Positions 5,084 to 25,614 of a DNA stretch of 31,302 nt are shown piece after piece. The notes under the pieces were generated by a model, which did not search any database, had not been told where the DNA came from, and saw only the letters and a program-made list of their open reading frames with translations. The position numbers and the translations under genes are program-made. The number at the start of each line of letters is the position of its first letter. Position 1 is the first letter of the stretch. The DNA comes from a virus, in IMG/VR virus record IMGVR_UViG_3300020171_000094, positions 1 to 31,302 of that record; one strand, given 5' to 3'.

Positions 5084-5386
5084 TTATTGCATCTTTTGCT
5101 CTTTTAATATTATAATACCAGAAGTAACTTCTAGATAATATTCTTCAAGTTTAGATCTTTTTTTGACAGTTAAAACTCTAACAATACAATCTGATTTAAT
5201 AACAATAGGTAAATCAAAAAAATTATTCTTTGACAGATCAAGCATTTGAATACCTGTTTGCACATTTTTAACAATACAACCACTTTTAAGTTTATAAATT
5301 TTTGACTTGTAGAATGTATCTACATCATCTTCACGAGTCACATAAATACTTCCATCTGACAACTCAATCTGAAATAATCTACCCAT
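5084..5386 (-). CDS. conserved-looking protein of unknown function, 100 aa
   Basis: Starts at ATG 5386 after AAAAGGAGGTTTAA, overlapping the upstream gene by 8 bp. It is rich in beta-strand patterns (LFQIELSDGSIYVTR, IVIKSDCIVRVLTVKK), suggesting a small all-beta or mixed fold. There are two lone Cys (37 and 67) but no metal motif, signal peptide or membrane helix. No family recognised. The operon position next to VRR-NUC suggests an early accessory role. Confidence 0.65.
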   Translation of the reverse strand: MGRLFQIELSDGSIYVTREDDVDTFYKSKIYKLKSGCIVKNVQTGIQMLDLSKNNFFDLPIVIKSDCIVRVLTVKKRSKLEEYYLEVTSGIIILKEQKMQ

Positions 5387-5633
5387 TTAAACCTCCTTTT
5401 TTAATCCATTCATCCATTTTTTCTTTAGACCCACGGCATGCCATAGGTGCTTCCATATACATAAATTTAGCAATATCAAACATTTTAATAGTATTAATTT
5501 CGTCAGCTATTGCAAAACTATCTACAAGTTTATCTTGTATAACTGCCGTTAAAAAATTACCTGGACATATACCTTCTTCAATATACCGTTTCATGCCTCC
5601 TTTAATGTGTTCTGGTAATAATTCGTAATTCAT
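5379..5633 (-). CDS. phage protein of the 'LLPEHI-GGM-RYIE' family, unknown function
   Basis: 84 aa from the ATG that follows AGGAGGATACA; a longer in-frame extension to 5684 lacks a site. The sequence MNYELLPEHIKGGMKRYIEEG followed by PGNFLTAVIQDKLVDSFAIAD is a pattern I know from small proteins widespread in phage and prophage early regions, with no established function. Helical, soluble, no Cys motif. The tail (KEKMDEWIKKGGLNG) overlaps the next start by 8 bp. Confidence 0.75.
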   Translation of the reverse strand: MNYELLPEHIKGGMKRYIEEGICPGNFLTAVIQDKLVDSFAIADEINTIKMFDIAKFMYMEAPMACRGSKEKMDEWIKKGGLNG

Positions 5634-5790
5634 TGTATCCTCCTTTCCTCCTTTTATATTTTTCTGGACATTGTCCCATTTCATATAACCGACAAATTTT
5701 TATACCATTTCCAATGAAAGGGATAAAGCATTCTCTGGTATAACATTTTTCATCTCTCACTTGATATTTCTTTTTCTCGGATTTTTTCAT
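5602..5790 (-). CDS. small basic Cys-containing protein, 62 aa
   Basis: The chosen ATG at 5790 follows AAGGGAAAATA. An in-frame ATG at 5871 has an AAAAGGA site too, but its first 27 residues would be a translation of the 3' half of a tRNA-like element (…RFKSCPQQP…), a common false extension. The product has Cys at 16, 21, 33 and 41 (KCYTREC, KICRLYEMGQC), so a metal-binding knuckle is possible. Its end overlaps the next gene by 32 bp. No family recognised. Confidence 0.5.
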   Translation of the reverse strand: MKKSEKKKYQVRDEKCYTRECFIPFIGNGIKICRLYEMGQCPEKYKRRKGGYNELRIITRTH

Positions 5791-5818
5791 TATTTTCCCT
5801 TTTATTATAAATGATGGT

Positions 5819-5973
5819 TGCTGAGGGCAGGATTTAAACCTGCTATGCTCTGATAGAATAATGAATAACATGTCAACGTCCTTTTACTGTTTTATTCTAT
5901 TTTTGCTTCTACAGATGACAAGCCGGTAACAAGTATTACCTCATTCGACACTTATCAATTCCGCCACCTCAGC
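5819..5973 (-). tRNA. tRNA-Leu-like element with enlarged or degenerate interior
   Basis: On the minus strand the ends GCTGAGG (5973-5967) and CCTCAGC (5826-5820) pair over 7 bp, followed by A. A T-arm GCAGG-TTTAAAT-CCTGC stands directly before the 3' acceptor strand, and TGGCGGAATTGATAA resembles a leucine-type D-arm. The span is 155 nt, about 70 more than a class II tRNA. No clean 5+7 anticodon arm can be placed: GGTAA-TACTTG-TTACC and a 9-bp stem ATAGAATAA/TTATTCTAT lie inside. It could be a tRNA with an insert, a decayed tRNA, or a tRNA mimic. CAACCA follows the acceptor strand. Confidence 0.5.
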
Positions 5974-5979
5974 AATTTG

Positions 5980-6147
5980 TTATATTCTTTTTTTCTCTTT
6001 ACCCTTATCTATATCGGCCTGTGATAAGTCCTTGTTGCAACTACAGGGTTCACTTGGATAGCCACACCACGAACTATGACTTCTTTGTGGTTTATCATAG
6101 TCGCAACAACAAGGCTCATTAGGGTAAAAACAGTAGTTTTTGTGCAC
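5980..6147 (-). CDS. 55-aa Cys-rich protein with a duplicated C-x-Y-P-x-E-P-C-x-C motif
   Basis: Starts with GTG at 6147, 7 bases after AAGGAG (6155-6160), and ends TAA at 5980. The two motifs CFYPNEPCCC (residues 6-15) and CGYPSEPCSC (28-37) are clear tandem duplicates, giving seven Cys in 32 residues, followed by a basic helix-like tail (DIDKGKEKKR). Two metal knuckles or disulfide loops are possible. No signal peptide. It lies directly upstream of the tRNA-like element and downstream of the polymerase. I do not recognise a family. Confidence 0.65.
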   Translation of the reverse strand: MHKNYCFYPNEPCCCDYDKPQRSHSSWCGYPSEPCSCNKDLSQADIDKGKEKKRI

Positions 6148-6325
6148 GCTATTTCTCCTTAAACTGGTTTAATCTCGCTCATGAAATCGAGATCGTTAGT
6201 AAGCTTCCATTAACTATTATAAATATCATTCCCATAAATTTTCTTCTTTTTTGTTTGATACTGGGAGCAAAATTCGAACTTGCAAATAAGAGTGACTCTT
6301 TGTGTATACCCATTTTCCACCATAA
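6148..6325 (-). other. gap after the polymerase gene with a T-arm-like fold and small dyads
   Basis: Reading leftward after the polymerase stop there is a hairpin AAGAG-TCA-CTCTT (6288-6300), then a T-arm-like GCAAG-TTCGAAT-TTTGC (6283-6267) with TCCCAGT A behind it. No matching ACTGGGA 5' strand is present, so this is a tRNA fragment or mimic rather than a tRNA. Further down is a 6-bp dyad ATCTCG/CGAGAT (around 6172-6197) and a possible 18-codon hydrophobic ORF (6179-6235). No promoter of the type used elsewhere was found. Confidence 0.4.
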
Positions 6326-8251
6326 TCACATTTTCCGGTATCTTTTCTCAACAAATCCCTCTGCATTAAGAGGAAGACCTTTTGCCCATTGGGGTACTTC
6401 ACACATCAGTTTATAAATATTATTTAATGTTTCTTCTTTATCACAATCCTCAGGAATCTCTAAAATGATTTCATCATATACTGAACCTATGATTTTATAT
6501 CCTGCTTTCTCCAAAGTTTCTTCACCATGAAATAATAAGTCTCTTGACATTGCTTGGACTATGTTTTCAACTAATCTTCCAGGAATTATACTTAACCTCA
6601 TCCATTTTTTTGTATATGGATTAATTCCAAATGCAGATGGTTCAAGTCCAAACTTACCTTCTGTAATAAGTGGTTTGTTATAATACATATTTCTTCCTGA
6701 TGGTAAAGTTAATTGTAACCATCTAGTTTTGTTTCTATCGAGAACTACTTTGTATGTAGCATATGATGCTTCAAAAGCTGTTCCAGGGTATGTTATAGCG
6801 TTTATTGCTGCATCTTTACATTTATACCATAACTCAACAACTTTATGATACTTAGTTCTATATGCATTAACTGCTCTTTGAGCTTCTTCAGGAGTCAATA
6901 ATAAATCATTTTTCTCTGCATAACCTATAAATCCTTTTCCTCCAAGGCCATACCCACAACCAAGAACCAATTGTTTACCAAAATATCTTTGTTGACTATT
7001 TATATCTTCATATGGTATTCCGTATAAGTCAACAGCCATATCAATATACTGATCTAGGTCTTCACGAAATAACTGTAAAGTTTTTTCATCTTGAGCAAGC
7101 CATGCAAGACCACGATTTTCTATTCCTGTATAGTCAGCTGCACCTATTAGTTTTCCTTTGGAAGCCTTAATCATAGCTCTAACTAAAGATTTTGCAACAT
7201 TTACAGGATTCTTTTCAATAACACTTAAGTCAAAAAATCCTTGTATAAGTTCCTGAGCTTCAGTTTCTGATTCAGCACCAACCTTTGATCTAGGTAAATT
7301 ATACAATTGAAAACCCATACCTGAATCTCTACCAGTATTAGCCCCATAATAACGGATATTATCATATATCCTGCCTTTATGCTCAAGTTCTATAATTTTT
7401 AAATACTTGGCAGTTGAAGATCTACCGAGTTCTTGCCTAAGTTCTAATACAGTTTTTACATCATCAGTAAGATCAACTCTCTTCAGTAGTTTAATAACTG
7501 TATCAGCTTGTAAATTGGGAGTTATAAGTCCTTTAGACTTTAACCATTTAACTATGCGTTGGTTTTGAGTAGCTTTTGTTACTTCACCGTTTGTTAGATC
7601 TGGCAGTGATTTATTTTGTTCTTCTTTATAAACCTCAGTTACTCTATAAATTTGTTTTGCAGATTCAATATCAATAGGTAATCCACGATTATTTTTTTTA
7701 ACTGTTCGTTCCCAATGCCTTTGCTCTTCATCTGATAATTTAGAAGCAGGTAAAGCGTTTAACATCTCATACATTGTATCTATATCACGTTTACAATACT
7801 CATGTAACTCCATTAAGTCCATATGAGTATATTTAAACGGTGGACAACATATCAATTGAATTAGTGCTTTACCCCTTGGATTTTTTTGAATCTTAAGTTT
7901 AAGGTCTTCACCTGCTTGAGCAAGGGATTGATGATATGTGAACCTTCCACAAATAGCCATAACATCAATCCATTGACCAATAGGTAACTGTGGAAATCTA
8001 TATTTAGAACCGAGAATATTCCATACTGCTAAATCAAATTGTGCATTAAAGGCATAAAGCTTATGTGAGTCAAGAGATTTCATAAATTCGGGAAGTTGAT
8101 TACCAGGAACCCACAATTGAGTTGGTTCATTACCAACTTTATATCCCATACAAATTATATCTGCTTCTTTACCAGCTAAATAATTCTTCCGTCCATGTTT
8201 AGCTAAATCAACTTCGCTTTTGGTTTCAAAATCAATTCCTACCAACGGCAT
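6326..8251 (-). CDS. polA: family A DNA polymerase with 3'-5' exonuclease
   Basis: 641 aa; phage replicative polymerase. Exonuclease: ExoI DFET (Asp7, Glu9), ExoII Asp73 (AFNAQFD), ExoIII YCKRDID (Tyr152, Asp156). Polymerase: motif A ADYTGIENR (Asp373, Arg380), motif B R422-x3-K426-x3-LGCGYG, motif C VYDE (Asp593, Glu594). Two residues are unusual: Leu430 stands where E. coli Pol I has Phe762 and T7 has Tyr526, and Tyr592 replaces the usual His of VHDE. All catalytic carboxylates are kept. Start after TTAGGAGAACTT. The SSB gene is immediately upstream with a stable hairpin between them. Confidence 0.97.
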   Translation of the reverse strand: MPLVGIDFETKSEVDLAKHGRKNYLAGKEADIICMGYKVGNEPTQLWVPGNQLPEFMKSLDSHKLYAFNAQFDLAVWNILGSKYRFPQLPIGQWIDVMAICGRFTYHQSLAQAGEDLKLKIQKNPRGKALIQLICCPPFKYTHMDLMELHEYCKRDIDTMYEMLNALPASKLSDEEQRHWERTVKKNNRGLPIDIESAKQIYRVTEVYKEEQNKSLPDLTNGEVTKATQNQRIVKWLKSKGLITPNLQADTVIKLLKRVDLTDDVKTVLELRQELGRSSTAKYLKIIELEHKGRIYDNIRYYGANTGRDSGMGFQLYNLPRSKVGAESETEAQELIQGFFDLSVIEKNPVNVAKSLVRAMIKASKGKLIGAADYTGIENRGLAWLAQDEKTLQLFREDLDQYIDMAVDLYGIPYEDINSQQRYFGKQLVLGCGYGLGGKGFIGYAEKNDLLLTPEEAQRAVNAYRTKYHKVVELWYKCKDAAINAITYPGTAFEASYATYKVVLDRNKTRWLQLTLPSGRNMYYNKPLITEGKFGLEPSAFGINPYTKKWMRLSIIPGRLVENIVQAMSRDLLFHGEETLEKAGYKIIGSVYDEIILEIPEDCDKEETLNNIYKLMCEVPQWAKGLPLNAEGFVEKRYRKM

Positions 8252-19475: not shown

Positions 19476-19690
19476 ATGAATCATATTCATTCTGTGTTAC
19501 TCATAATATAAAACAAATGGAGTAATAAAAAATGAATCATATTCACTGGATGAATTATATTCATTGGATGAATCATATTCACTGGATGAATCATATTCAC
19601 TGGATGAATCATATTCATTGGATGAATCATATTCACTGGATGAATCATATTCACTGGATGAATCATATTCATTGGATGAATCATATTCAC
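19476..19690. repeat. 18-bp tandem repeats, each with a TGAAT-N3-ATTCA dyad
   Basis: Unit ATGAATCATATTCACTGG repeats 8.8 times without gaps from 19532 to 19690, with C/T variation at two positions. A lone copy sits at 19476-19492 after the same GAGTAATAAAAA lead as the array. Each unit carries a 5-bp inverted repeat with 3-bp centre. The period of 18 bp keeps frames open on both strands, which makes false ORFs (MNHIHW...). Likely an operator or iteron array. Confidence 0.9.
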
Positions 19691-19764
19691 TTATTGAGTT
19701 CCATCCAGCTTTTTCCCTGTCAAGCCCCCTATGCCTCTTTTAATAAAAATAATTGTATAAAAAT

Positions 19765-20000
19765 CATAGGGTCAATCGGAAATATTTTATCATTTTATTT
19801 TTACTGGCTATAAACTGACAGTCCAGCATTACCATAGGGTCAATCGGAAATATTTTATCATTTTATTTTTACTGGCTATAAACTGACAGTCCAGCATTAC
19901 CATATAAGTATTCTGTGGTTTATTTTTTACTAGCTATAAACTGAATAATCCAGCATTACCATATAAGTATTCTATCTATAAACTAACAATCCAGCATTAC
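19765..20000. repeat. 68-bp tandem repeat with two shortened copies
   Basis: 19765-19832 and 19833-19900 are identical; 19901-19959 and 19960-20000 keep only the 3' half with small changes. The shared core is CTATAAACTGACAGTCCAGC followed by ATTACC. On the minus strand it reads GGTAATGCTGGA, close to GGTAATACCGGA in the 60-bp array, so the two arrays carry related words in opposite orientation on either side of the regulator. Confidence 0.9.
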
Positions 20001-24576: not shown

Positions 24577-25614
24577 ATGATGGTTGATAATCTGGCAGTA
24601 AAAATTGAGGATGAAAATCTTGGAGATGAGAATCTCGGGGATGAAAATCTTGGAGATGAAAATCTTGGAGATGAAAATCTTGGAGATGAAAATCTTGGAG
24701 ATGAAAATCTTGGAGATGAAAATCTTGGAGATGAAAATCTTGGAGATGAAAATCTAGATAAGGATGGTAAATCTAAAGAAGTAGCTAATTGGATGAAGGA
24801 AGATGATGACCAGACACCATCTGATACTATGCCAGTTAGTGCACATATACGTGCAAAACATAAATTGAAGGGAAAAATCGGGGAAAGAGACTCTGAGATT
24901 GAAAAACTTAGGAAAGAAAATGAAGCTCTTAGGAATCAAAGTCTAGTAACTCCTACTCGAGATAAAACCCTGGTAAGACCCAAACAAGATGAATATGAAT
25001 CTTTTGAGGATTACCAAACTGCTCTGGATAAGTATGAAGACAAACGACTTGATTCTAAGATTTCTGTAGTACAAGGGCAAAATAAACTTCGGGAAACACA
25101 AGCGAAGGCAATCGAAAAACTTAATGCAGCTGTAGATAGTCATTATGTACGAGCTGATAAGTTAATTAAAGACAGTGGTATTTCAGCAGAAACTTATAAA
25201 CAAGCAGATGAAGTAGTAAGGAATGCCATAGAGGCAGTCAGACCAGGGCAGGGTAATTTAGTTGTTGATCAAATAATCTCTATCTTAGGAGATGGTTCTG
25301 AAAAAGTTATATATAAATTGGGGAGAAGTAAAGCTCTTCGGGGTGAATTAATAACTCTTCTTTCAGAAGATCCCCATGGTTTAAGAGCAACTGCTTTTTT
25401 AGGTGAACAAAAAGCAAAACTATTAAGTACCACCAAAAGAAGATCAAATGCACCTACACCTTCAAATGAAATAAATGGAGATGCTACGTCTTCTAATAAA
25501 GAGCGGGTTTTCAAAAAGAAATATGATGCCGCTCATGCTAAAGGCAATACTCAAGCTGCCTACAATGCTAAGAAGGAAGCAAAAGTCGCAGGTGTTAATA
25601 CTTCTAAGTGGTAG
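24577..25614 (+). CDS. head scaffolding protein with DENLG-repeat N-terminus
   Basis: 345 aa between portal and coat, the P22 gp8 position. Residues 12-61 are nine DENLG pentapeptides plus DENLD; then VSAHIRAKHKLKGKIGERDSEIEKLRKENEALRNQS forms a coiled coil (about 85-120), a long helical region follows, and the last 70 residues are basic (KTTKRRSNAPTP... KKKYDAAHAKGNTQAAYNAKKEAKVAGV), like the coat-binding end of P22 scaffold. AAGGAGAAAG precedes ATG ATG; either may be used. The acidic repeat is unusual. Confidence 0.8.
   Translation: MMVDNLAVKIEDENLGDENLGDENLGDENLGDENLGDENLGDENLGDENLGDENLGDENLDKDGKSKEVANWMKEDDDQTPSDTMPVSAHIRAKHKLKGKIGERDSEIEKLRKENEALRNQSLVTPTRDKTLVRPKQDEYESFEDYQTALDKYEDKRLDSKISVVQGQNKLRETQAKAIEKLNAAVDSHYVRADKLIKDSGISAETYKQADEVVRNAIEAVRPGQGNLVVDQIISILGDGSEKVIYKLGRSKALRGELITLLSEDPHGLRATAFLGEQKAKLLSTTKRRSNAPTPSNEINGDATSSNKERVFKKKYDAAHAKGNTQAAYNAKKEAKVAGVNTSKW
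24610..24759 (+). repeat. 15-bp coding tandem repeat (DENLG)x9 + DENLD
   Basis: Ten 15-bp units of the form GATGAAAATCTTGGA run without gap; only unit 2 (GATGAGAATCTCGGG) and unit 10 differ much. Near identity at the DNA level points to recent slippage expansion within the scaffold gene. Confidence 0.95.

Follow-up and report, generated by a model that had tools for sequence, protein, structure and literature searches.

A probable non-decoding tRNA-Leu-shell RNA in a phage contig and the class of shell RNAs that it resembles

The stretch of DNA analysed here (the window; 31,302 nucleotides) is a 31.3 kb IMG/VR phage contig with helicase, ligase, polymerase, terminase, portal and capsid genes. 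Its minus strand carries at positions 5819-5973 a tRNA-Leu-like RNA gene of 155 nt, which extends from acceptor position 1 to discriminator A73. This element is probably a phage-encoded, non-decoding tRNA-Leu-shell RNA, having a frame that is found class-wide and an interior that is variable. The RNAs of the class, referred to as tRNA-Leu shell RNAs, keep a covarying acceptor, a D-arm, U48, a T-arm and, in most cases, A73 around a hypervariable interior, and are common in IMG/VR phage contigs and rare in bacterial genomes.

Results

Structure of the element

Read along the minus strand from 5973 to 5819, the element is laid out as GCTGAGG-TG-GCGGAATTGATAAGTGT-(about 104 nt)-GCAGGTTTAAATCCTGC-CCTCAGC-A. 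Its parts, and the reading frames on either side, are as follows.

5980-6147, minus strand: 55-aa Cys-rich ORF, separated from the start of the RNA by 6 nt (ORF listing)
5819-5973, minus strand: whole tRNA-Leu-shell RNA (covariance model match and fold, values below)
5967-5973, minus strand: acceptor stem 5' strand, GCTGAGG (sequence)
5948-5964, minus strand: Leu-type D-arm, GCG-GAATTGATAAG-TGT, with G18 retained and G19 changed to A (sequence, alignment)
5911-5964, minus strand: alternative long arm, GCGGA..TGATAAG with CTTGTCA..TCTGT, whose formation would open the D-arm (MFE fold)
5844-5947, minus strand: interior of ~104 nt replacing the anticodon arm and variable arm (no tRNA found; alignment)
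5925-5940, minus strand: small hairpin, GGTAA-TACTTG-TTACC (MFE fold; variant form in constrained folds)
5892-5900, minus strand: stem B (9 bp) 5' strand, ATAGAATAA (sequence; part of the MFE fold)
5853-5861, minus strand: stem B (9 bp) 3' strand, TTATTCTAT, at the variable-region position (sequence; part of the MFE fold)
5827-5843, minus strand: T-arm, GCAGG-TTTAAAT-CCTGC, with C56 changed to U, which could in principle pair with A19 (sequence, alignment)
5820-5826, minus strand: acceptor stem 3' strand, CCTCAGC, with the discriminator A at 5819 (sequence)
5602-5790, minus strand: 62-aa Cys-rich ORF, separated from the end of the RNA by 28 nt (ORF listing)

All seven acceptor pairs are present, with U-A at pair 3-70, and the flanking TT (5975-5974) and AA lengthen the stem to 9 bp. 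The T-stem is paired throughout (5/5), and the D-arm, GGTGGCGGAATTGATAAGTGT, has a stem of 3 bp (G-U, C-G, G-U). Alignment places A at position 48 (5844), where U48 is absent, and at the elbow the pairing-compatible bases A19/U56 stand in place of G19-C56. The genome continues with ACCA after the discriminator A, there being no CCA immediately 3' of A73. A sequence-only reading of this DNA had described an acceptor pairing of 7 bp, a T-arm and a Leu-type D-arm over 155 nt together with a 9-bp internal stem; the former are borne out by the sequence and by a model match at the same coordinates, and the latter is real (5900-5892 with 5861-5853).

The folding energy of the element is −47.2 kcal/mol (z −3.55), a value equalled by one of 200 shuffles. 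The MFE fold melts the D-arm, and with the D-arm forced the energy is −38.9 kcal/mol as opposed to −47.2 kcal/mol for the free fold, a loss that counts against the favoured explanation. A pseudoknot topology can be drawn in the window between GAATGA (5946-5941) and TTATTC (5868-5863) plus ATAGAATAA and TTATTCTAT, and is not significant on its own.

Detection of the element

Default ARAGORN, with and without introns of up to 200 nt, identified no tRNA at the element, confirming the earlier observation that no normal anticodon arm fits. Rfam returned no match at the gathering score, tmRNA and intron families included, and the interior is, as had been argued, too short for a group I intron. The Rfam tRNA model scored the T-arm alone, at 10.9 bits. 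A functional tRNA-Leu was rejected: it needs a long variable arm and an anticodon arm with a 5-bp stem and 7-nt loop, which the element lacks. Relaxed ARAGORN settings, which had been suggested as a check, do produce a call here, namely a 'tRNA-Asn with 69-nt intron' at the 80% threshold; the call carries no weight because lowered thresholds call many other sites too, with 166 calls within the window at the 70% threshold. A covariance model, R1, was constructed from 49 other phage members with the window excluded, and it matched the window at exactly 5819-5973, over model positions 1-139 of 139, with 50.0 bits and an E-value of 6.4e-12 (R1 E-values being rough). ARAGORN and Rfam miss the shell RNAs as a class, and phage annotation therefore overlooks them.

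Genomic setting

The RNA has an operon-like placement between small ORFs on the same strand. In the phage relatives L002 and L010 a homologue of ORF 5379-5684 comes immediately after the polymerase, indicating that the window RNA sits in an accessory insertion of ~640 bp. Two null results count against the favoured explanation: the element was beside the polymerase in none of 15 loci of DNA-polymerase-related phages, and no close relative was recovered with the exact D-arm 22-mer, GATAAG shells, the acceptor/T-arm combination or blastn versus isolate phages. Two weak R1 matches inside the polymerase gene of related phages (25.5 bits) were taken as chance.

The window also has a further, weak shell-like match (14.2 bits, E 0.023) at 6259-6390 on the minus strand, over the polymerase 3' end. 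This match has a T-arm, GCAAG-TTCGAAT-TTTGC, at 6283-6267, a Leu-like D-arm word and an unpaired acceptor, and is perhaps a decayed copy. Elsewhere in the window, GDENL is tandemly repeated at the N-terminus of a 345-aa protein (24577-25614) whose gene precedes that of the capsid, and a HIHWMN-repeat frame occupies 19532-19813.

Conservation and distribution of the class

Viral contigs were searched with a shell pattern in which 86-116 nt separate a Leu-type D-arm from a T-arm; the pattern did not demand acceptor pairing and is biased to one D-arm word. At least 120 contigs matched, most with the same build and with covarying acceptors, which makes a tRNA mimic the best supported of the three readings originally offered for the element. 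Among the matches listed, which were not selected for pairing, at least six of the seven acceptor pairs form in 62 of 72 distinct interiors, against ~15% with swapped acceptors, and 64 of the 72 have CGC as the D-stem 3' strand. The matches listed include 27 different acceptor sequences, AGTCAGG occurring in 36 members, and have A73 in 54/62 and an encoded CCA in 2/62. U48, directly 5' of the T-stem, is present in all 49 aligned members. Covariation in the acceptor and T-stem amounts to 95 two-sided changes as opposed to 21 in shuffles, for members preselected for paired acceptors, so that the unselected count over 72 interiors is the fair test. The interiors are hypervariable, with 70 families among 83 distinct interiors in the matches listed. 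A motif, CCGATA, found in 9 of 70 families of the matches listed (1.5 expected), was too weak to use as a conserved feature.

The class is defined by an interior of 46-120 nt with neither anticodon nor variable arm, a 7-bp acceptor, a discriminator A with no CCA directly after it, and a full-length match to a model of the acceptor, D-arm and T-arm of other members, all of which apply to the window element with its interior of ~104 nt. U48, kept in 49/49 core members, was not made a defining feature; owing to its A48 the element is filed as a divergent relative as opposed to a core member.

In bacterial and archaeal genomes (257 Gb) the pattern gave 23 matches, eight of them genuine (L139, L142, L143, L145, L147, L153, L155 and L158); the other 15, discarded, were either N-filled or neighbouring tRNAs of normal or truncated form. 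Cyanobacterial genomes (Paraprochloron, Nostoc, Trichormus) contain tandem groups of 3-6 shell-like RNAs spaced about 120-200 nt apart (L143 3767-5108, L147 5390-5912, L139 3105-3581). Among the phage isolates searched, none has a near copy of an AGTCAGG shell whose interior is enlarged. Sulfitobacter phage phiCB2047-B has an unannotated small relative, a 93-nt candidate (L166 596-688, 47.5 bits).

Several contigs carry arrays, with 12 matches in 3.8 kb of L073, seven in L059, six in L066 and five in L083, and in L207 several shell matches lie between 26 ordinary tRNAs. Most array members have AGTCAGG/CCTGACT ends in common and differ in their interiors; some of the shortest array matches coincide in part with tRNAs called by ARAGORN, and these may be tRNAs, whether ordinary or odd. 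No adjacent partner protein common to class members was found, and a literature search, with few subscription papers within reach, found no description of the class.

Structure of the interiors

Compensatory changes were observed within the interiors of some families. The L017/L059/L114 family has two two-sided changes and one G.U in a helix that crosses another helix, the L028/L047 family has two compensatory changes in a crossing helix, and the L019/L110 family has three in a plain hairpin. The changes in crossing helices indicate that at least some interiors are H-type pseudoknots, in which the anticodon-stem position pairs with the variable-region position. A pseudoknot as a universal feature was rejected: 11% of families reach p≤0.05, and the modest excess over shuffles counts against the favoured explanation.

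Insert-bearing tRNAs and single deletions

For each Leu-shell member, all single deletions after which a variable arm and a regular anticodon arm would remain were tried. A single deletion restored tRNA-Leu in 3.9% of members, compared with 2.8% of shuffled interiors, which argues against a reading of the shell RNAs as mini-intron tRNAs. For class-I tRNAs, a test of this kind succeeded in 47%, against 0.5%.

Phage class-I tRNA genes (Lys, Asn, Ile, Gly, Arg and others) were found with inserts of 40-56 nt in the anticodon stem, where they separate nucleotides 28 and 29, as in L267, L270, L297, L271, L311, L214 and L285 (viral contigs L214-L326). Removal of the insert gave a canonical tRNA in 26 of 64 tested (background 0.1%). 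The inserts mostly start with TA, contain a hairpin and often include CAGCAA or GTTACT; no Rfam family matched them, and they look like an unrecognised mini-intron. The anticodon loop of one phage tRNA-Leu (L031 3275-3403, minus strand) is enlarged by ~44 nt, close to where group I introns insert. L285 also carries a tmRNA gene (5605-6001, 98 bits).

Class-I tRNA shells with enlarged interiors occur in viral contigs too. This suggests that leucine identity may not be the point, and is a further count against the favoured explanation. One such family (L255, L266, L284 and L312) has the common interior ..GGTAAAGGACCGTAA..GGTAAAGCAAGCC, and no single deletion turns its members into a tRNA.

Discussion

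If the element is a non-decoding shell RNA, host enzymes of tRNA maturation, RNase P and the 3' enzymes, would excise it from the operon transcript. The requirement of RNase P is essentially a stacked acceptor/T-arm domain. The matured RNA would then receive CCA and be recognised by host factors that read the acceptor and elbow of tRNA-Leu, including LeuRS for core members, which would be leucylated; it would be unable to decode. The leucylation determinants of E. coli tRNA-Leu are A73, A15-U48, G18G19, A20a and G19-C56 (D/T-loop tertiary pairs), and aminoacylation does not require the anticodon arm (PMC9976931). Comparison of identity elements suggests that the shell keeps the known determinants, which predicts leucylation for most members. 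Leucylation of the window copy is doubtful given its A48, A19/U56 and D-stem weakened by G.U pairs, all of which count against the favoured explanation.

The closest known RNA is species 1 RNA of phage T4 (RNA C, rnaC, 139 nt), a late RNA of unknown function (PMC9697503). It too is a phage gene in a tRNA region, with a T-arm (CCGGG-TTCGAAT-CCCGG) beside an acceptor-like closing helix, two enlarged arms in place of the normal tRNA interior and a very stable fold (z −4.4), whose closing helix, long arm, 10-bp arm and T-arm resemble the window fold. However, it is without a Leu-type D-arm, its acceptor is imperfect and R1 matches its T-arm alone (12.5 bits); the similarity is one of architecture as opposed to sequence or model. 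The tmRNA likewise has tRNA-like ends around a non-tRNA interior, in its case with pseudoknots, and an alanine identity that is read without an anticodon. The window element differs in having no Rfam tmRNA match, a proper D-arm, no recognised tag frame and a leucine-type as opposed to alanine-type shell, pair 3-70 being U-A and not G3.U70. The pseudo-tRNA tRNA-Other of Bacillus cereus resembles it as a tRNA-like RNA with no part in translation, encoded next to a genomic island, but is cellular, has a Trp anticodon and is proposed to have a regulatory role within a larger RNA (PMC3399842). Group I introns in tRNA-Leu(UAA) likewise enlarge the anticodon region with additional RNA, whereas the window interior is far too short, matches no intron family and offers no anticodon loop to restore. 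The tRNA-Tyr genes of phages T5 and T6, which counter Septu and retron-Eco7, are tRNA-build phage RNAs directed against a tRNA-cleaving defence and have been discussed as decoy or supplement (PMC13096335); these are decoding tRNAs, whereas the window RNA is predicted to be unable to decode.

A decaying tRNA-Leu gene, once functional, that took up an insertion and has since drifted would account for G19A, C56U, U48A and the G.U pairs of the D-stem, and for the absence of the gene from related phages and of any close relative that keeps it. This explanation is unlikely for the window copy: pairing is complete in its acceptor (9 bp) and T-stem (5 bp), the elbow has changed on both sides (A19/U56), the fold is unusually stable, the gene is placed compactly between two ORFs and the same build exists in many other phages. 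Decay, as had been proposed at the outset, is disfavoured for the class as a whole by the compensatory changes inside some interiors and by the invariant U48, and keeps a small chance for this divergent copy, with its weakened D-stem and U48 changed to A; a decayed member of the shell class would, in any case, still not be a decayed decoding tRNA. Less probable still is a functional tRNA from whose anticodon region a small, unknown intron is removed. Such genes have precedents in the class-I phage tRNAs with inserts at 28/29 and in the tRNA-Leu of L031, the one convincing case of the 'tRNA with a tiny insert' that had been suggested for the element, but single deletions restore Leu-shell members no more often than shuffled interiors, and ARAGORN with introns finds nothing at the element.

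A rival on function, overlapping with the favoured explanation on identity, is that the tRNA shell supplies ends and nuclease resistance to an interior that is the active regulatory RNA, be it antisense, protein-binding or an antitoxin-like pseudoknot. Hypervariable, structured interiors in a constant shell would be expected of such a scaffold, class-I shells with enlarged interiors fit it, and T4 RNA C joins a T-arm with large extra arms. Yet the window interior has no antisense pairing with its own genome beyond that of shuffles, and the strict keeping of A73 and U48 is left unexplained. The scaffold is a possibility to which we give rather low odds. Under the non-decoding shell RNA explanation, the role could most readily be that of a mimic or decoy in the phage-host conflict over tRNAs, a function that we infer and rate somewhat short of an even chance, and on which the interior would vary as partners or attackers vary, with a tRNA scaffold protecting an RNA payload the next most likely; the phage 'bait' tRNA of the earlier reading is a hypothesis. 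Defences that attack class II tRNAs by cleavage include Septu and retron-Eco7 (PMC13096335).

On a broader and tentative proposal, phages may keep a diversifying repertoire of leucylatable, non-decoding shell RNAs, alone or in arrays that reach a dozen members with one fixed shell around changing interiors, for counter-defence or host takeover based on tRNA mimicry, the window element being a lone diverged copy. Knowledge of non-decoding tRNA-like phage RNAs goes back to T4 RNA C and D, with no function attached to them. With many independent and widespread examples, shells that mostly predict leucylation and arrays of up to a dozen interiors, the purpose of such RNAs becomes testable, and Septu and retron-Eco7, through their cleavage of class II tRNAs, provide a concrete hypothesis for the role that the shell RNAs may have.
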